Below, one piece after another: positions 3,726 through 22,587 of a stretch of 22,912 nucleotides of DNA. The notes beneath the pieces were generated by a model. The model did no database searches. It had not been told where the DNA came from and saw only the letters and a list, made by a program, of their open reading frames with translations. The stretch's first letter is position 1. Each line of letters begins with the position of its first letter. Source of the stretch: a virus; the IMG/VR virus record IMGVR_UViG_3300025314_000511, positions 1-22,912 of that record; one strand, 5' to 3'. The translations under genes and the position numbers were made by a program.

Positions 3726-4766
3726 TTACGATACTATTTCAGGACAAGCTCCGCACTCGAACTCAATAACGCCAGTTTGACCGGAACATCCTTCAGCACC
3801 GTTGAATAAATCAAAACGAGTGTGAATAAGTACGTTTGTTTTTTCATACGCCCCAGAGCAGTCTTTGGTTGCATACACATCATAGATTACTCCCGGTAGA
3901 TTTTTTGATGCTTCTGAGTACTTAATTCCAATATCACCGCCTCTGTCAATTGCATTAACAGCAGTTGTACCTTTCCATAATGATTTGTTTGCAAACGCAA
4001 CAGTTCCGCGTTCAATCATGTAAGTCATTCCCGGTGCAATGGCGGTCATGTTTTTCAAATCGCTGTAAATTTTCATTAGTTCAACAGCCTTTGCAGAACC
4101 TGAACCATTTGCATTTCCTGCATCCAATTTCGCAGCAACAATAATATCAAACAAATTCTCGCCATCAATTAAGAAAGGAGAAGTAAAGTTATTCATCATT
4201 GCAACTTTTTGAAAGTATGCGAAAACTTTCGGTGTCCAATAAATCGGAGGGATGAAAGTAGTTGCCCATAAGCCTGTGTCATCGGAACAGCCAATTCCTG
4301 CCTGTGTGTACAAGTTTGCAGATGTAAATGTTGCTAATTTTGCAAGAATTAGTTGAGCAAGTTTTTCATCCAACGCTTTCATCGTCTTCAAAAGGTTATC
4401 AGCGTACACCTCGATCACATTAAGGTTACTGTTAACATAGTTAGCGTCATCAATAGAGAATGCTTTTGACACTTCCATTGTGATTGCATAATCCTTGCAA
4501 TCGGCATCTGCCTCAGTGCCGGAAATGGTACAGAAATTAGGCGCACCGGTGCTTACCTCTGTGTTACAAAACTTTGTCCAATAGATGCGTGCTTCACGTT
4601 CCTTTTTCGGGTCAGTAAGATATTCAACATTCGCAGTACTGTTTTCAATCAACGCCTTAGCGGATTCCACATTTACGACATAGTCTGATTTTTTTGCTGA
4701 ATCAGCAAACATTGTTTGTGCTAAAAAATATGCTGCGGTTAATTCCGCACAAGTTAGAGTTGCCAT
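3726..4766 (-). CDS. Major capsid protein
   Basis: 346 residues, the main shell protein of the head. The N terminus (MATLTCAELTAAYFLAQTMF) and the Cys-rich N-terminal third (KFCNTE, NFCTISG, ADCKDY) resemble the capsid proteins of Bacteroidota phages as I recall them; the C terminus ends in ECGACPEIVS. The middle has long helices followed by the IERGTVAFANKSLW beta region typical of HK97-fold C-terminal domains. It follows the scaffold gene by 22 nt and is followed by a terminator-like hairpin, the usual arrangement for the most expressed late gene. Identification rests on length, order and overall character. Confidence 0.85.
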   Translation of the reverse strand: MATLTCAELTAAYFLAQTMFADSAKKSDYVVNVESAKALIENSTANVEYLTDPKKEREARIYWTKFCNTEVSTGAPNFCTISGTEADADCKDYAITMEVSKAFSIDDANYVNSNLNVIEVYADNLLKTMKALDEKLAQLILAKLATFTSANLYTQAGIGCSDDTGLWATTFIPPIYWTPKVFAYFQKVAMMNNFTSPFLIDGENLFDIIVAAKLDAGNANGSGSAKAVELMKIYSDLKNMTAIAPGMTYMIERGTVAFANKSLWKGTTAVNAIDRGGDIGIKYSEASKNLPGVIYDVYATKDCSGAYEKTNVLIHTRFDLFNGAEGCSGQTGVIEFECGACPEIVS

Positions 4767-5734: not shown

Positions 5735-5791
5735 ATTCATGCAGCTTTCCTGCCAGCTTTTAGTTTTAATTCATACGGCTTTCCCGTCAGC
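5735..5791 (-). promoter_or_regulatory. Two tandem covarying hairpins in the scaffold leader
   Basis: Two copies of a 23-nt element (5791-5769 and 5757-5735 on the minus strand) share 19 of 23 bases. Each contains a 4-bp stem closing a GAAAG loop: ACGG-GAAAG-CCGT in the first and GCAG-GAAAG-CTGC in the second, preceded by GCTG and followed by ATGAAT. All four differences fall in the stem and are two compensated base-pair changes. The second copy ends one base before the scaffold ATG (5733). This indicates selection for structure, for example a repressor or ribosome-control site. Function unknown. Confidence 0.65.
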
Positions 5792-5797
5792 AATAAT

Positions 5798-5819
5798 ATT
5801 TATTTAACCCTAAATAAAT
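5798..5819 (-). promoter_or_regulatory. AT-rich hairpin in the scaffold leader
   Basis: Perfect inverted repeat ATTTATTTA / TAAATAAAT with a 4-nt loop, seven bases upstream of the two tandem hairpins in the 143-nt gap between the 85-residue gene and scaffold. No T-run follows it, so it is not a standard terminator. It could be an mRNA processing or stability element, or part of a larger leader structure with the neighbouring hairpins. Confidence 0.5.
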
Positions 5820-5876: not shown

Positions 5877-6134
5877 TTAAAGTTTTTCTTTGTCCTTCGC
5901 TTTTTCGCCTGATGCCGGAGGAGTTTTTTTCTTAAAAATAATTTTTTTATCTTCCTGTTTTTGAATCACAGCGTTTTTTACAACGTGGATATTTTCTACA
6001 ATCTGGTCAGGAATAGTTGATGAATCCGTTTCACTTATAACTGTGAAGTTCATTTTCTGTCGATGGTTTAATGTATCGAATTTGTTTTTTTCGATAACGA
6101 TTTCTTTCCCGTTGGTGTTGTTTTTGATTATCAT
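5877..6134 (-). CDS. Small hypothetical protein upstream of scaffold
   Basis: 85 residues, Lys/Ile-rich, ending in a very basic tail (KKIIFKKKTPP then GEKAKDKEKL). Starts in an ATGA overlap with the stop of the upstream 151-residue gene, so the two are probably co-translated. No family recognised. The first half (MIIKNNTNGKEIVIEKN) looks like a small beta unit; its place just before scaffold and capsid suggests a minor head or assembly role. Confidence 0.55.
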   Translation of the reverse strand: MIIKNNTNGKEIVIEKNKFDTLNHRQKMNFTVISETDSSTIPDQIVENIHVVKNAVIQKQEDKKIIFKKKTPPASGEKAKDKEKL

Positions 6135-6586
6135 AGTCCTGCGATTTCTACTTTAAATTTAAATGCGATTTTTAATTTTTCAATGCTTCCTAACTTTTCA
6201 TAAAGCAATGTTATCAAAGCATTCAGGCTCATACTGTTTTTGTACGGTACATTTTCAGCATCAAAATAATCTTTGATTTGTGATTTGAAAATGTTATCCT
6301 TAACGAAGTTGGCAAACTCTTCTTTAGGCTCTATCTGAGACTTTGCTGTGTTTGTAACAAACTGTTCAGGAACGTTTGCAGGTGCAGTATTTTCAACCAC
6401 TTGGTTTATTTCATCATCTTTTTTCTGCCCGGAATTAGGAACAATCCGTTTTACGACACTGCTCTCAACAACCTGATTTGATTGCTCTACCTCAACCCAA
6501 CCATTTTTATCTTTCAATAAATTCCACGAATCAAGATTGAATCTTTTTCTTAATTTTCCTTTTTGGGCGATAATAGTTTGAGCCAT
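6131..6586 (-). CDS. Hypothetical protein with possible C-terminal HeH/LEM-like helical domain
   Basis: 151 residues. The N-terminal part (MAQTIIAQKGKLRKRFNLDSW) is basic; the middle (about residues 35-95) is a polar linker in which NQVVE occurs twice (SNQVVESS and INQVVENT), suggesting a small internal duplication. The C-terminal 60 residues (KDYFDAENVPYKNSMSLNAL and following) have the short helix-turn-helix spacing of HeH/LEM-type domains often found in phage head proteins. First gene of the late block downstream of the inserted plus-strand cassette; a candidate promoter lies about 20 nt upstream of its ATG. Function is inferred only. Confidence 0.5.
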   Translation of the reverse strand: MAQTIIAQKGKLRKRFNLDSWNLLKDKNGWVEVEQSNQVVESSVVKRIVPNSGQKKDDEINQVVENTAPANVPEQFVTNTAKSQIEPKEEFANFVKDNIFKSQIKDYFDAENVPYKNSMSLNALITLLYEKLGSIEKLKIAFKFKVEIAGL

Positions 6587-6613: not shown

Positions 6614-6662
6614 AAAAAAATATTTAATACTGCATAATTATTTTTTACGAAATTTTATTGAA

Positions 6663-6693
6663 TTTGCACATACAAATATTTTTTATACTTTTG
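6663..6693 (+). promoter_or_regulatory. Promoter of the plus-strand cassette
   Basis: TTTG (6663-6666), 19-nt spacer, TACTTTTG (6686-6693): an exact match to the Bacteroidetes TTTG-N19-TAnnTTTG pattern. The ATG at 6703 is only nine bases past the -7 element, so the first mRNA would have almost no leader. Confidence 0.65.
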
Positions 6694-6702
6694 TTCCTGA
6701 AA

Positions 6703-6846
6703 ATGAGTACAAAAAGTAAAATTCCGATTTATTGTAAATGTGAAAATTGTGAAGAGTTCTTTTTATTCACAAAAAAAAAACTATATTGCTCTGATTCCTG
6801 CAAAAAGAAATCCTATTATAAAAGAAAACTCATAAAAAATGATTGA
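6703..6846 (+). CDS. Small zinc-finger protein
   Basis: 47 residues from ATG 6703. Metal ligands C13-x2-C16 and C29-x3-C33 (CENC then CSDSC) followed by a basic helix (KKKSYYKRK) form the compact 'CxxC ... YCSdxC+' finger common in small phage and bacterial proteins, probably nucleic-acid binding. A longer reading from TTG 6658 is rejected because it would run through the promoter. Its last codons overlap the next gene by 8 nt. First gene of the cassette, so it could be a regulator of it, though that is only inference. Confidence 0.6.
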   Translation: MSTKSKIPIYCKCENCEEFFLFTKKKLYCSDSCKKKSYYKRKLIKND

Positions 6847-7213
6847 AGTAAATCAGTTGCGTTGCGGAAATACTGTATCAAATGGAAGAAAGCCAATAAG
6901 TATTGATTTGGAATTTTTTGAATTACTAAATGATGGATCAAATGATATATCGGAATTTCCATTTATCCAACTAACAAAAGAATGGGCGCATTATTTAGGC
7001 TTTGAAGTAATCGACATGGGTGATTTCTGGGAGTTCAATAAAGGTGATTTTCAATTAATACAATTTAAAACACCTATTAACAATGGAACTTTAGAGCCTG
7101 TATTTGTAATCCATTCCAAAACATCAAAGCATATCAAAGTGCCTTATGTTCACAAATTACAGAACCTTTACTTTGAAATTGAAGGTATGGAGTTAATTTA
7201 TAAACCTAAATAA
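6839..7213 (+). CDS. Conserved Bacteroidota phage hypothetical protein
   Basis: 124 residues. The layout 'ELRIGN'-like start (NQLRCGNTVS), a middle QLTKEWAHYLGFEV motif and a C-terminal YVHKLQNLYFEIEGMEL motif matches an unnamed family that recurs in Bacteroidota phages and prophages. The C-terminal HxLQNLYF(A/E)(L/I)xGxEL block is the family's signature as I recall it. Function is unknown. It overlaps the zinc-finger gene upstream and is six bases from the next gene, so it belongs to the same transcript. Confidence 0.65.
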   Translation: MIEVNQLRCGNTVSNGRKPISIDLEFFELLNDGSNDISEFPFIQLTKEWAHYLGFEVIDMGDFWEFNKGDFQLIQFKTPINNGTLEPVFVIHSKTSKHIKVPYVHKLQNLYFEIEGMELIYKPK

Positions 7214-7219
7214 AAAGCT

Positions 7220-7489
7220 ATGAAACCAATCCCATTTGAAGGACAAAACGTTGTCTTCGCAGAAAATCAAAAAGAGTATGAACCATTGCCAGCACATAGA
7301 ACCGAAGATGGGATAGTAACAAGTTGCTGGGAGCTTAGTAAGGAAGACCTTGCAAAAATAAATGAAACAGGAAAGCTGTACGTATGTCAAATGACTTTTA
7401 ACAAGCCATTGCAACCGATTAATGTTTTTACTGAGTTTACATTTTTAACGGAAGATGAGTTACAGGAAGAAGAAGATTTGAATACGTAA
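7220..7489 (+). CDS. Conserved phage hypothetical protein (PLPAHR family)
   Basis: 89 residues. Begins MKPIPFEGQNVVFAENQKEY and contains EPLPAHRTEDGIVTSCW, LSKEDLAKINETGKLYV and QMTFNKPLQPI. This succession (P-L-P-A-H, then SCW, then TGK-x-YV, then TF-x-x-PLQP) is characteristic of an unnamed family in many phages and prophages. I know of no established function. Acidic C-terminal tail (EDELQEEEDLNT). It lies 1 nt from the next gene. Together with the preceding gene it may be older phage sequence to which the glycosylation genes were added. Confidence 0.65.
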   Translation: MKPIPFEGQNVVFAENQKEYEPLPAHRTEDGIVTSCWELSKEDLAKINETGKLYVCQMTFNKPLQPINVFTEFTFLTEDELQEEEDLNT

Positions 7490-7490
7490 A

Positions 7491-8171
7491 ATGAAGCTAC
7501 ACATCAACATTCACAGCTACCAACGAAAGGGAATGCTTGAATCTTTAATTAAAGAGATAAAAGATTTTCAGGCAAAGGAAATACACGAAGTTTCTTTTTC
7601 AATCATTGATGACGGCTCTGATTTTACCTCATCAAACAAATGCTTTCACCAGTTGCCACACGGAGGCAAGTCTAATTTTTGGAAGTTATTTGATTATTCT
7701 TTAAAATTGTGCAAAAATATTGATGCCGATATTTATTTGTTCATCCCGTCCGATGTTTCACATATTCAATTTGAAAATATATTTAAGTACCATAATAAAT
7801 ATAAAGGATTTGGGCGTACTTTGGAGGCATACTGTTACAATGTTACCAACGATGGCAGGGTGAAGTGCTGGGGTAATAAAAGAATGACCGTACATGATGA
7901 GTATTCGTTTAGAAGTTATTTCACAGACTGCGGTTTCTTTTGTCCTCGATTAACTCTTGAAAAATTAGACTTTACAATTCATCCGGTTGAGCAATGCAGG
8001 TTCAAAATGAATCCAAACATAAGTTCAGGTGTTGGCCAACAAATGACAACCAGGTTAAACAATTTGAAAGTTAAAATGTTTATTCCAAAGAAAAGTCTTT
8101 GTTTTCACGGAGACCACGATAGCCTGATGCACTTTGAACACCGAAAAAAAGTTCCTTTACTAAGCAAGTGA
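7491..8171 (+). CDS. Glycosyltransferase-like protein (GT-A type)
   Basis: 226 residues. The N terminus HINIHSYQRKGML with SIIDDGSD at residues 37-44 is the nucleotide-sugar binding start of GT-A family-2-like transferases; FIPSDV (84-89) stands where the metal-binding DxD is expected, with Ser-Asp instead of a full DxD. GGKSNFW at 58-64 is another conserved-looking loop. No membrane segment, so it would act in the cytoplasm or at the inner membrane face. Followed by the methyltransferase gene after one base. Substrate unknown; surface polysaccharide or glycoprotein are the likeliest targets. The altered DxD makes activity less certain. Confidence 0.6.
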   Translation: MKLHINIHSYQRKGMLESLIKEIKDFQAKEIHEVSFSIIDDGSDFTSSNKCFHQLPHGGKSNFWKLFDYSLKLCKNIDADIYLFIPSDVSHIQFENIFKYHNKYKGFGRTLEAYCYNVTNDGRVKCWGNKRMTVHDEYSFRSYFTDCGFFCPRLTLEKLDFTIHPVEQCRFKMNPNISSGVGQQMTTRLNNLKVKMFIPKKSLCFHGDHDSLMHFEHRKKVPLLSK

Positions 8172-8172
8172 A

Positions 8173-8835
8173 ATGGAAACAATAAACCATACATTAAAAG
8201 ACAAAACAAAATTAACCTTATTTAAGGGCGATCACATAACAAATGTTATTGTTAGGAGTGATTATTATTACGAATCAGCAATGCTGCTATTTATAAGGGA
8301 CAATATTCCAAAGGGCTTATTTATTGATGTAGGGGCAAACATTGGCAATCATACTGTTTTCTTTGCGAAGTATTGCGCCAGTTCGGTAATGTCATTTGAG
8401 CCGTTCCCAGATACTTTTAAATTATTGGCGAAAAACATTCATCAAAATGATTTAGAAAACACTAAAATATTTAATGTAGGATTGTCGGACACGAATGAAG
8501 ATATATCTATGCTTGCGGTTAGTGGTAATGCAGGGATGAATAAGGTAGATAAGACCGGGACAATAAAAGCTAAACTAATAGTGTTCGATCCTTGCTTTGT
8601 TATTTCAGATAAAAACCCTGTAACATTAATTAAAATTGACTGCGAAGGATACGAAGAAAAGGCAATATTAGGAATGATTAATATTATAAATAAATATCAT
8701 CCTGCTTTATTTATTGAGTGCCAAACAGACAAAGAATTATTTGAAATGAGAAAATTATTAAAACCTCTTGGTTATGATGATAGATATAAATTCAACGCTA
8801 CTCCGACTTATTTTTTTAGCCACCAAAACAAATGA
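8173..8835 (+). CDS. FkbM-family methyltransferase
   Basis: 220 residues, full length for the family. SAM-binding motif I FIDVGANIGNHT (residues 50-61), acidic loop SFEPFPDTFKLL after strand 2, the family's KIDCEGYEEKAI motif at about 155-166, and HPALFIEC near the C terminus together are diagnostic of FkbM-type methyltransferases. These usually O-methylate sugars or related small molecules and are frequent in surface polysaccharide clusters. It sits between two glycosyltransferase-like genes, so the likely target is the glycan they make. The stop overlaps the next start (ATGA), indicating coupled translation. Confidence 0.88.
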   Translation: METINHTLKDKTKLTLFKGDHITNVIVRSDYYYESAMLLFIRDNIPKGLFIDVGANIGNHTVFFAKYCASSVMSFEPFPDTFKLLAKNIHQNDLENTKIFNVGLSDTNEDISMLAVSGNAGMNKVDKTGTIKAKLIVFDPCFVISDKNPVTLIKIDCEGYEEKAILGMINIINKYHPALFIECQTDKELFEMRKLLKPLGYDDRYKFNATPTYFFSHQNK

Positions 8836-9503
8836 TTGAGCGAAAAACATCATATAAAAAACCTGTTGTAATAGGCATTGCCACCTATGCAGGGAGAGAA
8901 GAATCATTAAAACAAGTATTGATTTCGCTTTCAAAACAGTGCGACCAGATAGTGCTTTACGACAATGAAGTAAATCCAAATTTAACCGACCTCGGAAAGT
9001 TCTACGGGCTTTATGATTTGAAGGAATCGGTTTATTATTTGTGCTGTGATGACGATATAGTTTATGGCGATACCTACGTTAAAGATATGGTTTCAGCAAT
9101 TGAAAGGACAGGGACAATAGTATCGCACCACGGGAGGCAATTGTTAGGGCTTGGGCGTTCTTATTACCGAGGTCATAAATCATTCAGGTGCCTTGGAAGT
9201 GTTTTAAAAGAGGAAGTAATTGATGTTGCAGGAACTGGTGTTGCTGGATTTGATACAGAATATTTCAATCCTATTGATTTAATTTATTCAAAAGATATGA
9301 AAATGTCTGATCTTGTTTTTTCTTTGGAAGCTGCAAAACAAAATAAAACAATAACGATATTGAGGCACAATGCAGGATATTTGAAGTCATTGCCACAGGA
9401 TGAGAAAAAATCAATATGGTTTGAACATAGAAAAAATCATTCAAGACAAAATGAAATTGCAGACGAAATTTATTTATTAACTAATAAAAAAACAAAACCA
9501 TGA
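8832..9503 (+). CDS. Glycosyltransferase-like protein with DDD motif
   Basis: 223 residues. VVIGIATYAGREESLKQVL (residues 12-30) matches the start of GT-A transferases, and LCCDDDIVYGDTY with D73-D74-D75 supplies the metal-binding DxD. The later GVAGFDTEYF segment could be part of the acceptor site. Starts in ATGA overlap with the methyltransferase gene and ends in ATGA overlap with the lipoprotein gene. Together with the neighbours it probably decorates a surface glycan. Donor and acceptor cannot be predicted. Confidence 0.68.
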   Translation: MIERKTSYKKPVVIGIATYAGREESLKQVLISLSKQCDQIVLYDNEVNPNLTDLGKFYGLYDLKESVYYLCCDDDIVYGDTYVKDMVSAIERTGTIVSHHGRQLLGLGRSYYRGHKSFRCLGSVLKEEVIDVAGTGVAGFDTEYFNPIDLIYSKDMKMSDLVFSLEAAKQNKTITILRHNAGYLKSLPQDEKKSIWFEHRKNHSRQNEIADEIYLLTNKKTKP

Positions 9504-9835
9504 AAAAAATATTATTGATTTTAGCAGTTACTTTTGCATTTTCGGGATGCGAAAAGAAAGAAGAAGTAAAAAAAGCAGAACCAAACGGTACAATGATTTT
9601 TTATAAAACTCATAATACAGCAGACTGGACTTTGATATGGGAAGGTGTGGAGTGTGCACATTTGAAATACGCTGTACAATCTCCTCCGTGTGGTGCTGCT
9701 GGATTCATCACTAAAGATGTTAAGCCGGGAACGTATGATATTGGATTTAAGAGTTACAGCGGTCTTGCATGGTCTGCAAGTGGTACGAAGGTTACTATTG
9801 TCAGCGGACAATGTAAATTTTATCCGTATAATTAA
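9500..9835 (+). CDS. Lipoprotein with surface-export-type signal
   Basis: 111 residues. Signal peptide MKKILLILAVTFAFSGC with lipobox FSGC and lipidated C17. The residues after the cysteine, E-K-K-E-E, are like the K-(D/E)2 lipoprotein export signal described in Bacteroidota, which sends lipoproteins to the outer face of the outer membrane. The mature part is a small beta-rich domain (TMIFYKTHNT, GTYDIGFKSYSG) with two or three further cysteines. Last gene of the cassette, followed by an intrinsic terminator. A surface lipoprotein in a phage moron could block superinfection or change receptor access; this is inference. Confidence 0.8.
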   Translation: MKKILLILAVTFAFSGCEKKEEVKKAEPNGTMIFYKTHNTADWTLIWEGVECAHLKYAVQSPPCGAAGFITKDVKPGTYDIGFKSYSGLAWSASGTKVTIVSGQCKFYPYN

Positions 9836-9840
9836 AATAC

Positions 9841-10767
9841 TTATAATTTATTTCTCTTAACAAAAGCGGAATTCCTTTGAGCCGCTTTTTTATTTTGACT
9901 TGCTGTGATTCTTTTAGCCAAATCAGCGGTTATGTAATCCCAATGATGTTTGCACCCAAATCCGCCGGGCAATTCAAACGGGTCGTATTCACCTGGGTAA
10001 TTTTCGTACATCTTTACAATCCGTGGATCGTTCCTTAGATTTTCAATTTGCTTTGTGCTGAAAATCTTGCCGTTATTCTCAATACAAATATCATGAGATG
10101 TAAGCATCAGCCCTCCGCCATAATAAGCGTGTCTAAGTTCTAATTCATCAGCGTAAATCTTGCTATTAGCGTTATCAATAGAATTTAAAACATCCTTTGC
10201 AAAAGTGTTATAATGCCGTTCAAAGATACCTGATTGCTCAGGAGAGCCTACAATAATTTTTTTAAATGATTCCTGTAATTTAAGCAGGTCGTAATTGTTG
10301 GTAATTGCTTTGCGAACCTCTTTAGCAACCTGCTTTTGAATGGATGGATCAGCAATGACTTTATCAAAGAATCCATTAGGTTTAATCGTTCCGTCCGGCT
10401 TCAATCCCAACTTTCTTTTTTGTACTTCGACTGTTTTTTTTCTGATTAAATCCAGCTTTTTAACGTCATCAAACATTGTTGCATAGTATCGCATAGTCCA
10501 ATTACCAAGAGAAAAAGCCGAATCGCTGTAATCCTTTAAAATAGATGTGTTGGCATTAATTGAGAACTCCTTAACAGTTTTCTCGATTGAATTTATTACT
10601 TTCAGTTCTTCAGCGGAAGAGAATTTTTTACCGACAATATCTTTTAGATACTTGTTGAAAAGTTTATCAAACAAATCCAACTGATACGTGGACATCTTCG
10701 CACGTATCAACTTTTCCCGTTTGAGAACAAAATCAGTTTTTATTTTGCTTATTTCTTTTCGTGTCAT
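9841..10767 (-). CDS. Minor head protein, SPP1 gp7 / Mu F-like
   Basis: 308 residues. Long helical N-terminal two thirds, then a C-terminal domain with C228-IENNGKIFS and GGFGCKHHWDY (C272, H274, H275). A Cys/His C-terminal unit of this shape is characteristic of the SPP1 gp7/Mu F head morphogenesis family, which binds the portal and acts in head assembly or DNA delivery. It lies four bases after the portal gene, its normal partner. Its last codons contain, on the opposite strand, the terminator of the inserted cassette. Confidence 0.8.
   Translation of the reverse strand: MTRKEISKIKTDFVLKREKLIRAKMSTYQLDLFDKLFNKYLKDIVGKKFSSAEELKVINSIEKTVKEFSINANTSILKDYSDSAFSLGNWTMRYYATMFDDVKKLDLIRKKTVEVQKRKLGLKPDGTIKPNGFFDKVIADPSIQKQVAKEVRKAITNNYDLLKLQESFKKIIVGSPEQSGIFERHYNTFAKDVLNSIDNANSKIYADELELRHAYYGGGLMLTSHDICIENNGKIFSTKQIENLRNDPRIVKMYENYPGEYDPFELPGGFGCKHHWDYITADLAKRITASQNKKAAQRNSAFVKRNKL
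9862..9892 (+). terminator. Intrinsic terminator of the plus-strand cassette
   Basis: AAAAGCGG (9862-9869), 12-nt loop, CCGCTTTT (9882-9889), with the T-run continuing through 9890 and then ATTTT. An 8-bp perfect stem plus U tract, 27 bases after the lipoprotein stop. It lies inside the 3' end of the oppositely oriented minor head gene. In the minus direction the A-rich side gives only a short T tract, so it should act mainly on plus-strand transcripts. Confidence 0.8.
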
Positions 10768-14669: not shown

Positions 14670-15314
14670 TTCATTTTTTTAATTAGAAAATCCCCATCAA
14701 TATAACGACTATTCCCATCACAATCCATTTTCTCTAAAAACGCTTCTTTTATTTCGATTGACTGAAAAGTGATAATCAAATAGTTTTCTCCGGTTACTTT
14801 GCTTTTATCCTTGGATTCTTTTTTAGCCTTTTTAATAGCCTCAATGTTTTCTTTTGTATTCTTTGTTTCGGTTTCTTCTTCCAATGATTCTACGATTGAT
14901 TTGATTCCTATTATGTTTAAATCTTCATCGGTAAATCCTGTGTTACCCCAATCGACATCTAAAGTTTTTAGAATATCAAAATCATACTCCCCTTGAGTGC
15001 TGGGATTATTAAGAATAATATTTATTTCCTTTTCCTTCTTTAGATCAACGTCAATGCAGGAAACTGTTAATGAGTAATCGTTTGTTTTTTCGAGAATATC
15101 TAATTGAGAAATACGCTGATGCCCCCCCCACTAAATTACCAGTGCGCTTATTCCATACAAGCGTTTCAACAAGCCCGTTCTGCTTTAATGACTTTCTCAG
15201 CCCTTTTTGAGCGTGGTCTGCAATTTTACGAGGGTTATAGTCAGCGTTTTTTATTTCGCTTCGATGAATCGTAACCGCTTCAAATTTTTGGTATTTGCTT
15301 ATTTTGGCTTCCAT
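14666..15314 (-). pseudogene. ParB-like nuclease-domain protein, frameshifted at a G8 tract
   Basis: From ATG 15314 the reading begins with a ParB/Srx-like domain (IKNADYNPRKI, LRKSLKQNGLVETLVWN, GNLVGG) but after the minus-strand G8 tract at 15129-15122 it goes out of frame and stops at 15051. With seven G instead of eight, reading continues GGHQRISQLDIL..., the ParB box, and stays open to the stop at 14666, giving 215 residues. That stop forms an ATGA overlap with terS, which supports the longer frame. The C-terminal part is Lys/Glu-rich. Overlaps the PAPS-reductase-like gene by 35 nt. It could be a sequencing error, a slippage-expressed or phase-variable gene, or a true mutation. Confidence 0.8.
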
Positions 15315-15960
15315 TTAGTATTTGAACTTCCGCGAATGGGAAAACTTTTATTATTTTTTCTAAATCTTTTGGATAATTTAATTTTAAATAGCTTAAACAA
15401 TCAAAATTAAGATCAACCCCGGAGCTTTTACTTCCTTTGGTGTATTCAATTGGTGCTGGTAAGCGGTTTTGTTTAATGTATGACAAACACATTGATTTGC
15501 TCCATTCAGATAATGGATAAGCTCGTTTAGCATCTAAATTTATTGCTTTTAAAAAGTAAGTTCCAAGCATTAACCTTCTATTAAGGCTGTCCGATTGCTT
15601 TATACCAGTAATTATCCAATCACAATTAAAATCTTTTTTTGCCTGAGCTTCAATGTCTCCAAGTTTTATTATAGGAACCGGCTTTTCGTGGAATCGTAAA
15701 AAATTATCGTTAAAGTACTGCGAAAGAACAAAGTGAGGGTATTTTCTGCATTCTACTTTATATTTTTTCTCCGCCCAATCACAATATTTCTCAACGTGTT
15801 CCAACCCTTTTACCAAATACATGAAGGCTAAATTAACCTTTAAATCCGACTTAGAAAGTAAATCTAAAAGTATTAAACTATCCTTTCCACCGGAATAAAA
15901 CAAAACAACGCTATCGGTTTGCGTTTTTATAAACTCAATTACCTTTAGCGTTGTTTTCAT
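15280..15960 (-). CDS. PAPS-reductase-like PP-loop protein (IbrA/DndC-like)
   Basis: 226 residues. The PP-loop SGGKDS at 23-28 marks an ATP-pyrophosphatase fold of the phosphoadenosine phosphosulfate reductase superfamily; ITGIKQSDSLNRR and the Pro-rich YPLSEWSKSMCLSYIKQN segment fit too. The C-terminal catalytic Cys signature of true PAPS reductases is not evident, so sulfate reduction is unlikely. Phages often pair such a protein with a ParB-domain protein near terminase; the IbrA/IbrB pair of E. coli prophages is the named parallel. DNA modification or gene regulation are candidate roles. Starts two bases after the stop of a 23-residue peptide. Confidence 0.78.
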   Translation of the reverse strand: MKTTLKVIEFIKTQTDSVVLFYSGGKDSLILLDLLSKSDLKVNLAFMYLVKGLEHVEKYCDWAEKKYKVECRKYPHFVLSQYFNDNFLRFHEKPVPIIKLGDIEAQAKKDFNCDWIITGIKQSDSLNRRLMLGTYFLKAINLDAKRAYPLSEWSKSMCLSYIKQNRLPAPIEYTKGSKSSGVDLNFDCLSYLKLNYPKDLEKIIKVFPFAEVQILNGSQNKQIPKI

Positions 15961-19621: not shown

Positions 19622-20482
19622 ATGGAAACAAATGAAGAAATAGTAATTATCACTGAAACCGACCAGTCGGCAATATACTTGCAAGATAGGGCAATGGTAG
19701 ATGTACAGATAAGTACTGCGAAGGCTTATCCCAGGAATATCCGCAAAGCGACTGAAAACGCTATTGCTATTGTTACAATGGATAAAGCGACTGCATCTAC
19801 TTGCACTTATTCCGTTCCGAGGGGGGGGAAGTCGATAACAGGTCCAAGCGTTCACCTCGCTAAGATATTGGCTCAGGTTTGGGGAAATATGCGATGTGAA
19901 GCAAAAGTTATTAGCCATGATGGGAAGCAAGTAACATCACAGGCAATTGCGTTTGACCTTGAAAGTAATTTAGCTATCAAAGTGGAAGTTAAGCGCTCTA
20001 TTCAGCAAAATGAATATAAGGAAGGAAAACGTACTGGCAAGATGACAACAATGGCAGATGATATGATAGTAGTTACTGGTAATGCTGCTAATTCAATCGC
20101 GCTAAGAAATGCCATACTTTCAGTAATCCCGAGGGCAATTGTTGATAAAATTTACAACGCTTCTTTACAGACAATTACAGGCGATGTTTCCGATAAAAAT
20201 AAATTACTTAAAAGGCGTAAAGAGGTGTTTGATGCTTTAATTGATTCTTATTCAGTAACCGAAAAAGAAATATTATCAGTAGTTGGTAAAGCATCCATAA
20301 ATCACATTGTAGCGGAGGACTTGGTTGTATTAATTGGTTTGGGTCAATCAATTAAAGATGGGGACACAACGGTAGAATTAGCTTTTAAATCAAATAAACC
20401 AAAAGCAACGGTTGCAGAAAAAAAGGAAGTAATAAAAGAAAATTCAAAAACTAATGAAACCCCTAAACTTGACCTGCCATAA
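19622..20482 (+). CDS. Putative single-strand annealing / recombination protein
   Basis: 286 residues. Central core CTYSVPRGGKSITGPSVHLA, WGNMRCEAKV, FDLESNLAIKVEVKRSI, MIVVTGNAANSIALRNAI and SVIPRAI is a pattern I know from a widespread but mostly unnamed phage protein family. I place it among annealing-type recombination proteins because it is directly followed, with a one-base overlap, by a phage exonuclease domain, the usual pairing of annealing protein and exonuclease. The conserved RGGKSITGPS loop and the Lys-rich, disordered C terminus (after about residue 255) fit a DNA-binding role. A G8 tract (19821-19828) encodes the Arg-Gly-Gly and is in frame. Confidence 0.6.
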   Translation: METNEEIVIITETDQSAIYLQDRAMVDVQISTAKAYPRNIRKATENAIAIVTMDKATASTCTYSVPRGGKSITGPSVHLAKILAQVWGNMRCEAKVISHDGKQVTSQAIAFDLESNLAIKVEVKRSIQQNEYKEGKRTGKMTTMADDMIVVTGNAANSIALRNAILSVIPRAIVDKIYNASLQTITGDVSDKNKLLKRRKEVFDALIDSYSVTEKEILSVVGKASINHIVAEDLVVLIGLGQSIKDGDTTVELAFKSNKPKATVAEKKEVIKENSKTNETPKLDLP

Positions 20483-22587
20483 TGAGAAAAGAACATAAAT
20501 ACAGGGATTTGACCCACGACCAGCATGAAGAACTGTTTTTCAACTATCTTATTGATAGTTGGAGCTTTTCAAAAGTTGCATCCTTTGCCCGGAATGAAAA
20601 AGCGTTTGAAATGTCATACATTTATAGACAGCCTTTCAAAATGTCATCTTCAATGGTTGCAGGGTCTGCTTATCATGCAGCAATGGAATTGTTTTTTACT
20701 GATTTGAAAGATGGTGTAAAAAATGACCTTGCAACCTTGCAACTGGAAGCATACGCATCCATTGATAATGTTATGCCGAACCAGTGGAAAATTCAGAAAA
20801 CAACTCCTACAATTGAGGATTGCAGGGATAAAGCTACCAAAGGCGTGAATGCTTTATTAAAAAACTTTTTCTCTGATTACTCACTTTTTGAATCCGAAAT
20901 TAAAGAGGTGCTATTTGTCGAATGCAAGTTAGACCAATTTTTAACGATAAACGGTGTCGATATTCCTTTGCCCTGCCATTTACGAATAGATTTGATAATT
21001 AAAACCAATAACGATAAAATTGTAATTATTGACCATAAATCAAAGGCAAGTTTTTCAGATGAAAAAGAATTAAAATTTTCAATCGGGAAACAGGCTATTA
21101 CTTATACTTTGGGATTTGAAGCTGAAAGCGGTTTAACAGTTGATGAGGTTTGGTTTATTGAAAATAAAACTTCTGAAAATCGGGATAAATCACCGCAAAT
21201 AAGCTGTTTTAAAATGGCAATGGATAAAGATACTCGCCGATTGTACGAAGCGATGCTATATGAGCCATTAAAGCGCATGCTGGAAGCTGTATCAAATCCT
21301 GACTATGTTTACTTAATTAACGAAAGCGACAATTTTGTGGACAAAGCAGAAATATACGAGTTTTGGGCAATGACAATGATAGCGGAGGTGGACGATTTCA
21401 ATATTCAATATTCAAAAAAAGGAATGATTGAGAAACGATTAAAGAAAATAAGGGATAGTTCTATTGCTGTTATTTCACCACAAGTAATAAAAAAATTCAG
21501 AGAAAATGCAAGTGAGTTTATTCAATTTGATTTAACAAATAAAGATATGACAAAGCAGGAAAAAATAGAACACATTTTAAGGTCACTTTCAATAGTTGTA
21601 AAGGTTGCCCACACATTTACAGGGTATAGTTCTGACACCTTTTTAATTGAAGTTTCTGCCGGAACAAATTTAGCAAGTGTGCAAAGATTCAAGTTAGATA
21701 TTGCAAGTGCTTTAAACGTTGAATCAATACGTATGATGAAAGATTTATACGTACACGACGGAAAGTCTTATTTGGCAGTCGAAAGCTCTAAGGTGAGGGA
21801 AAATGACCTGTTATTTGATGCAAAATATTTAGAAGGTTCAAAAATTCCAATCGGAATTAATAACTTTGAAAAAACTATTTACTGGAATGTTGAAAATCCA
21901 AGTACTCCGCACGTTTTAATATGCGGTTCAACTGGCTCAGGAAAATCAGTTTGTATAATTTCAATTATTGAATACGCAAAAATTTACGGATTTGATGAAA
22001 TACAAATCTTCGACCCAAAATTTGAATTTACAAAATATAAAGGTTCAAAAGTTTCAGTTTATAATGATATTGAACATATTGAAACTGTTATGGAATCAAT
22101 GGTTGAAGAAATGCAAATGCTTGTAAAAACTGGCAAAAAGAAAAATACTTTAATCGTTTTTGATGAGTTTGCAGATGCTCTTTCTCAGGCTCGTACTGGC
22201 AATGAATTAGATGTGAAAAGTATGGTACAAACTGGATTTACAAAAATAAAAGGAATGTTTGGGCAGGAAATGATACCTAAAATGGAATTAAAAACAACCG
22301 GAGTAAAAAAATCATTAGAAGAAAATCTAAAAATCCTTTTACAAAAAGGTCGTTCATCTGGTTATCGCATTATTGCAGCTACTCAAAGAGCATCAGTAAA
22401 AGTAATTACCGGAGATGCGAAAGTTAATTTCCCTGTTCAAATATGCTTTAAAGTTCCAAAAGCAGTGGATTCTAAGGTTGTAATTGATGAAGAGGGTGCT
22501 GAAAGTTTGTCCGGCAAAGGTGATGGTTTAATAAAATCACCTGAGTATTTAGGAGTTGTAAGATTCCAGGCGTTCTATAAAAACTAA
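20482..22587 (+). CDS. PD-(D/E)XK exonuclease fused to an FtsK-type DNA translocase
   Basis: 701 residues with two enzymatic parts. Residues 1-290: RecB/Cas4-like exonuclease, with SFSKVASFAR (28-37), GSAYHAAME (61-69, H65), RID (D170), IIDHK (D184, K186) and QAITY (Q204, Y208), i.e. all core motifs of the fold. Residues about 365-445: alpha/beta region like the FtsK alpha domain. Residues about 470-700: RecA-type motor with HVLICGSTGSGKS (Walker A, K488), TLIVFDEFADAL (Walker B, D561, E562), IIAATQRASV and a terminal GxGDGLI element. The winged-helix gamma domain of FtsK is missing. It probably cuts or resects DNA while moving along it, in partnership with the annealing protein. One long uninterrupted frame, so the fusion is real. 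Confidence 0.85.
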   Translation: MRKEHKYRDLTHDQHEELFFNYLIDSWSFSKVASFARNEKAFEMSYIYRQPFKMSSSMVAGSAYHAAMELFFTDLKDGVKNDLATLQLEAYASIDNVMPNQWKIQKTTPTIEDCRDKATKGVNALLKNFFSDYSLFESEIKEVLFVECKLDQFLTINGVDIPLPCHLRIDLIIKTNNDKIVIIDHKSKASFSDEKELKFSIGKQAITYTLGFEAESGLTVDEVWFIENKTSENRDKSPQISCFKMAMDKDTRRLYEAMLYEPLKRMLEAVSNPDYVYLINESDNFVDKAEIYEFWAMTMIAEVDDFNIQYSKKGMIEKRLKKIRDSSIAVISPQVIKKFRENASEFIQFDLTNKDMTKQEKIEHILRSLSIVVKVAHTFTGYSSDTFLIEVSAGTNLASVQRFKLDIASALNVESIRMMKDLYVHDGKSYLAVESSKVRENDLLFDAKYLEGSKIPIGINNFEKTIYWNVENPSTPHVLICGSTGSGKSVCIISIIEYAKIYGFDEIQIFDPKFEFTKYKGSKVSVYNDIEHIETVMESMVEEMQMLVKTGKKKNTLIVFDEFADALSQARTGNELDVKSMVQTGFTKIKGMFGQEMIPKMELKTTGVKKSLEENLKILLQKGRSSGYRIIAATQRASVKVITGDAKVNFPVQICFKVPKAVDSKVVIDEEGAESLSGKGDGLIKSPEYLGVVRFQAFYKN

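Follow-up and report, generated by a model that had tools for sequence, protein, structure and literature searches.

Two neighbouring short sequences in the leader of a phage gene differ from each other exactly where their letters can pair with one another, which raises the question whether an RNA structure has been kept by selection at this place and what it might do. We have analysed this locus in a 22.9-kb virus record (22,912 nucleotides, called the window below), whose late genes lie on the minus strand. The features around the locus are as follows.

3726-4766, minus strand: major-capsid-like gene, 346 aa
4789-5733, minus strand: scaffold-like gene whose 314-aa product is mostly helical (pI 5.9); it begins 1 nt after the proximal element
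5735-5757, minus strand: proximal hairpin GCTG-GCAG-GAAAG-CTGC-ATGAAT (5' arm 5753-5750, loop 5749-5745, 3' arm 5744-5741); 42.3 bits, part of the covariance model seed
5758-5768, minus strand: A-rich linker between the two hairpin copies, TAAAACTAAAA
5769-5791, minus strand: distal hairpin GCTG-ACGG-GAAAG-CCGT-ATGAAT (5' arm 5787-5784, loop 5783-5779, 3' arm 5778-5775); 42.1 bits, part of the covariance model seed
5798-5819, minus strand: AU-only 9-bp hairpin ATTTATTTA-GGGT-TAAATAAAT, only in the window phage
5877-6134, minus strand: small basic protein of 85 aa (pI 9.5); all five phages compared have a gene of about this length upstream of the leader
6131-6586, minus strand: 151-aa protein; a similar gene lies at the same place in all five phages
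9841-10767: late gene, MuF-like as judged by eye

Tandem hairpins in front of a scaffold-like gene

The preliminary description had reported two 23-nt copies with a 4-bp stem around a GAAAG loop, and on the minus strand of the window it proved exact. The flanks (GCTG and ATGAAT) and the loop are indeed identical in both copies, and the four letters at which the copies differ make up pair 1 (A-T/G-C) and pair 3 (G-C/A-T), both of them compensated. The copies are held in two tandem 34-nt units directly 5' of the scaffold ATG, and the second one ends, as had been noted, one base short of it, with a single C (5734) between the end of the proximal copy (5735) and the ATG (5733-5731). A third hairpin had been described further upstream; it does exist, with a 9-bp AU-only stem, but it is absent from the leaders of the relatives.

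By chance, 0.88 matches would be expected in the window with 3 mismatches allowed, and two exact ones are observed. The folding energies are unremarkable when compared with shuffled sequences, with z of -1.3 and -1.7 for the two copies in the window and from -0.0 to -1.9 for all copies tested. Since the folding energy is unexceptional, the case has been built on conservation and covariation in relatives.

As for the genes, the terminase and portal among the late genes of the window have PHROG matches, and the late set further includes the MuF-like, scaffold-like and capsid-like genes and two small genes. The names "scaffold" and "capsid" are weak assignments from gene order and weak matches. 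The structure model of the scaffold is moderate (pLDDT 62) with weak fold matches only, and that of the capsid was set aside as too poor (pLDDT 38). The capsid of one relative matches PHROG 7231, a virion structural protein (E 4e-6).

A plus-strand gene block (6658-9835) separates the MuF-like gene from the small genes before the scaffold; judged by eye, its products include two likely glycosyltransferases, a putative methyltransferase of FkbM-like type and a putative small lipoprotein. This block looks like inserted cargo, since the corresponding gap is only ~75 bp in two relatives (L119 and L120). Elsewhere the window encodes a 701-aa protein with PD-(D/E)XK nuclease and FtsK/HerA-type ATPase domains (20482-22587, Pfam) and a PAPS-reductase-family protein (15280-15960, Pfam PF01507), which is followed by an 87-aa ORF that is ParB-like by eye.

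The element in related phages

A search with the scaffold protein alone gave only a near-identical sibling contig. With the capsid protein two further phages were found, L064 and L065 (74% and 48% identical), and with a scaffold profile another two, L119 and L120. All four were thus identified independently of the hairpin (L064 and L065 by the capsid, L119 and L120 also by the scaffold), and since they were not used in proposing the structure, they serve as an out-of-sample check. Their scaffolds are 53-63% identical to that of the window. In all five of these uncultured, distantly related phages with the scaffold family, the element ends one base before the ATG. The copies in the relatives read as follows.

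L064: GCTG-ACGG-GTAAG-CCGT-ATGAAT
L065: GCTG-ACGG-GATAG-CCGT-ATGAAT
L119, proximal: GCTG-ATGG-GTAAG-CCAT-ATGAAT
L119, distal: GCTG-GTAG-GTAAG-CTAC-ATGATT
L120: GCTG-ACGG-GTAAG-CCGT-ATGAAT, plus a degenerate distal copy

The distal stem of the window (ACGG/CCGT) is the stem of the proximal copy in three relatives, while two stem types are new with respect to the window (ATGG/CCAT and GTAG/CTAC); the degenerate distal copy in L120 shows one more pair type. A leader has one or two copies, and L119 carries a tandem pair as the window does. In both of these phages, which have two good copies each, the copies agree in the loop and the second pair and differ at pairs 1 and 3. That is, the same difference (A..G vs G..A) is found in both phages, with the order reversed. 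The arms of neighbouring copies could form two of the four Watson-Crick cross-pairs (three if G-U is counted). It may be inferred that the differing tandem stems guard against cross-pairing between neighbours or against loss by recombination.

In addition, four of the five phages have a tRNA-Met(CAU) gene (L064:4927-5002, L065:4908-4981, L119:3865-3938, L120:3868-3941) that stops 42-62 nt short of the scaffold ATG, and there the element sits between the tRNA and the ATG. Upstream of the scaffold leader in the window and in the sibling contig, no tRNA was found. The tRNA is placed within the late structural operon in these four phages. L119 has an additional 104-aa ORF with a signal-peptide-like start (L119:3539-3853), which separates the small gene from the tRNA; this ORF is absent from the ORF lists of L064, L065 and L120.

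Conservation and covariation

The seven well-formed copies have four stem types, and all of their 28 stem cells are paired; three of the four pairs have changed on both sides and none on one side only. For the new stem cells contributed by the relatives alone, 20 of 20 pair. Shuffles have a mean covariation score of 0.36, and 0 of 500 reach the observed 0.71; the paired fraction collapses to 7-50% if the structures are slid by 1-3 columns, while the count of pairs changed on both sides is matched by 53 of 500 shuffles and kinship among the sequences inflates the remaining covariation measures. The independent compensatory events are few (about five double changes), since there are only five lineages and all changes in the well-formed copies are transitions.

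The proximal element is 67-100% identical between the phages, in comparison with 36-47% at the fourfold synonymous sites of the scaffold gene and 8-50% in the 24 nt 5' of the element. Constant are GCTG, the closing G-C pair, the GNNAG loop and ATGA-T, with A as the fifth base of ATGAAT in six of the seven copies. The RNA consensus is GCUG-RYRG-GNNAG-CYRY-AUGAAU, and the stem is unbulged and 4 bp long.

Overall, the earlier proposal of an RNA element under structural selection is borne out in five of five phages, with two added compensated stem types and every stem cell paired. The support named beforehand, namely copies preceding the scaffold genes of related phages and further compensatory pairs among them, is supplied by the four relatives, and we have encountered neither stemless relatives nor uncompensated changes in the arms, which had been named as counter-evidence. 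As the hairpin shape has been kept while the letters changed, the element is, on this comparative evidence, a structured cis-acting leader RNA.

Position of the element at the ribosome-binding region

The best terminase matches of these phages are Flavobacterium phages, their GC content is 32-35%, Shine-Dalgarno (SD) sequences show little excess upstream of the genes (5 of 61 vs 3.4 expected), and the start context is A-rich, with A enriched at -3 and from -10 to -14. By these features the phages look adapted to Bacteroidota, which look like the probable hosts. Initiation in Bacteroidota does without the SD interaction. In Flavobacterium, A at -3 aids initiation, and structure near the start usually lowers it (PMC6847099).

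Counted from the scaffold AUG, the hairpin arms and loop occupy -8 to -20 in each of the five phages, so that they overlap the ribosome-binding region. When 61 upstream regions were folded, the five scaffold leaders were all within the ten most stable, with a median of 0 kcal/mol over the regions; for most other genes of these phages, no structure is predicted there. The GAAAG loop was also considered as an SD sequence and rejected, since the loop varies among GAAAG, GTAAG and GATAG and the complementarity to CUUUC is lost in relatives.

Searches for further copies

A covariance model run over the records of the five phages gave no credible further copy, and none before the capsid gene. The window has no match in Rfam 15 at the gathering score, and a relaxed Rfam search of the leaders returned only the tRNA and sub-threshold chance matches. 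In IMG/VR, nearly all matches to the exact flank and loop pattern are due to chance, with one to three of the four pairs formed, and all four pairs are formed only in the window phage (its sibling contig). A relaxed scan of IMG/VR gave the relatives and chance matches; L081, L082, L092 and L100, which are all one sequence, have four of four pairs, yet they lie in unrelated contexts and were dismissed as chance. A scan with GCTG and the stem freed gave, among the matches listed, the same phages and L258, which is fully paired but lacks GCTG and was likewise not accepted.

In 84,980 species genomes, the pattern together with a start codon had seven matches, none with all four pairs, and a capsid profile found no relative in the species genomes. 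Neither scaffold nor capsid has a relative among 50,697 phage records. No credible copy was seen in the nearest cultured phages by terminase (Winoviridae of Flavobacterium) or in a human-gut phage record sharing the terminase type. Within the reach of these searches, the element belongs to the scaffold leader of this phage lineage.

Possible functions of the element

We hold with moderate confidence that these uncultured tailed dsDNA phages have a cis-acting RNA hairpin in the scaffold 5' leader which is probably a protein-bound translational operator. Given that five phages have kept the shape despite the letter changes, the hairpin probably serves as a switch or handle for scaffold output, and the combination of a weak stem, an invariant loop and invariant flanks at the ribosome site is the anatomy of such an operator. 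The element would act as RNA at translation initiation. A protein ligand would recognise the GNNAG loop and the GCUG/AUGAAU flanks, for which a C-G pair plus a 2x2 internal loop is predicted, and by clamping the weak hairpin it would block or tune the entry of the ribosome; the output of scaffold, and the coupled output of capsid, would thereby be set. The candidate ligands, likeliest first, are the scaffold, the capsid, the small upstream phage protein and a host protein. Feedback by scaffold or capsid protein would amount to autogenous control, for which both are plausible candidates.

The location at the start codon would also suit a positive element of initiation, in which the hairpin gives the ribosome a handle (a standby site, or a platform for bS1 or the 30S subunit) and raises or fixes scaffold translation without a phage repressor. 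Here the hairpin takes the place of the A-rich zone at -10 to -14 and keeps the A at -3, the spacing to the start site is invariant, and high output is expected of scaffold and capsid genes. We nevertheless give this explanation, the stronger of the two main rivals, a fairly low probability, as structure in the initiation region usually has the opposite effect in Flavobacterium (PMC6847099) and the element precedes neither the capsid gene nor any other gene of these phages. Lower still we would rate the other main rival, a role in protecting or processing mRNA ends, whereby RNase P and RNase Z excise the tRNA and the scaffold-capsid mRNA is shielded by hairpins that lie close to its new 5' end. 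The tRNA-Met(CAU) at its short distance from the ATG in four of five phages is in line with this, and so are the two hairpins in most leaders; however, such shielding has no need for an invariant GNNAG loop, for the GCUG/AUGAAU flanks or for a fixed AUG spacing, and the window phage has the element without the tRNA.

Read as DNA, the stem forms a 4+4 inverted repeat, which might be an operator of a dimeric protein or a hairpin for recombination or nicking, and tandem copies are common among operators. A DNA operator is unlikely because adjacent copies have unlike half-sites (ACGG, GCAG) but the same loop and flanks, the reverse of what an operator shows, and because the element keeps its place relative to the start codon, on the sense strand; very little weight is left for this reading at the DNA level. 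Hardly any is left for a conserved short upstream coding sequence in which the pairing is coincidental. In six of the seven copies one frame does read L-x-G-K-x-[YH]-[ED], but residues 2 and 5 vary, and the changes occur in step at paired positions, not mainly at third codon positions. This reading was rejected because L065 has a TAG within the only otherwise open frame and the upstream AUGs lie in differing frames. Resemblances to hammerhead, k-turn and boxB that were noticed by eye also found no support.

For the protein-bound operator, a fuller scheme can be offered tentatively, as an assembly sensor. Free scaffold or capsid would bind the putative GNNAG hairpins and stop its own translation in an SD-less host; the orthogonal tandem stems would fold separately, and the tRNA may define the 5' end of the mRNA.

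Comparison with known systems

As far as its sequence tells, the RNA element is new, and its general kind is a known one. The boxB of lambda-type nut sites is a small hairpin with a G-led pentaloop that is bound by a phage peptide; it goes together with an adjacent boxA and an N-like antiterminator. The present element is likewise a small hairpin with a G-led pentaloop, but it belongs to a late operon, where it sits right by a start codon, and its loop ends in G, not A; the position at the start codon makes an identity with boxB unlikely. Mini-ykkC (guanidine-II) consists of two small tandem hairpins with a constant loop before a gene, and this arrangement 5' of a gene is shared here, whereas the loop and stem sequences are others, Rfam gives no match, and a single copy is enough in some phages.

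The coat operator of the ssRNA phages MS2, PP7 and Qbeta is a short start-codon hairpin whose stem can be exchanged, whereas letters of its loop are conserved. The coat proteins of these phages bind RNA (PMC7952577). Our element resembles this operator as a short hairpin adjoining a start codon, with a conserved loop and a changeable stem; it differs in that the phage is a dsDNA phage, the gene is that of a scaffold and not of a replicase, and the binder is putative only. An operator of MS2 type is defined by a bulged adenine in the stem and an ANYA-type loop, and our element has an unbulged 4-bp stem and a GNNAG loop, with no AUUA-type loop.

In phage P22, autogenous post-transcriptional control of the scaffolding protein has long been proposed, by which its output would follow capsid assembly; phages need a suitable ratio of scaffold to capsid. 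The scaffold gene is a candidate target of post-transcriptional control here as well, and homology to the P22 scaffold was not seen in the searches made. We know of no defined RNA hairpin or site for scaffold control in P22, and the hairpin locked to the scaffold start codon would be a concrete candidate site for control of this type.

In the SD-less Bacteroidota, gene-specific control of initiation is exemplified by the autoregulation of rpsU (bS21) in Flavobacterium johnsoniae (PMC9976891). While rpsU relies on an unusually strong SD, the scaffold leaders carry a hairpin and have no SD, only GGNNAG in the loop; an extended SD against the 16S 3' tail, as in rpsU, is not found in them. To our knowledge, few gene-specific initiation elements have been recognised in SD-less Bacteroidota. 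The scaffold hairpin points to such control in these hosts, and it would add an RNA-protein pair that could be usable as a tool.
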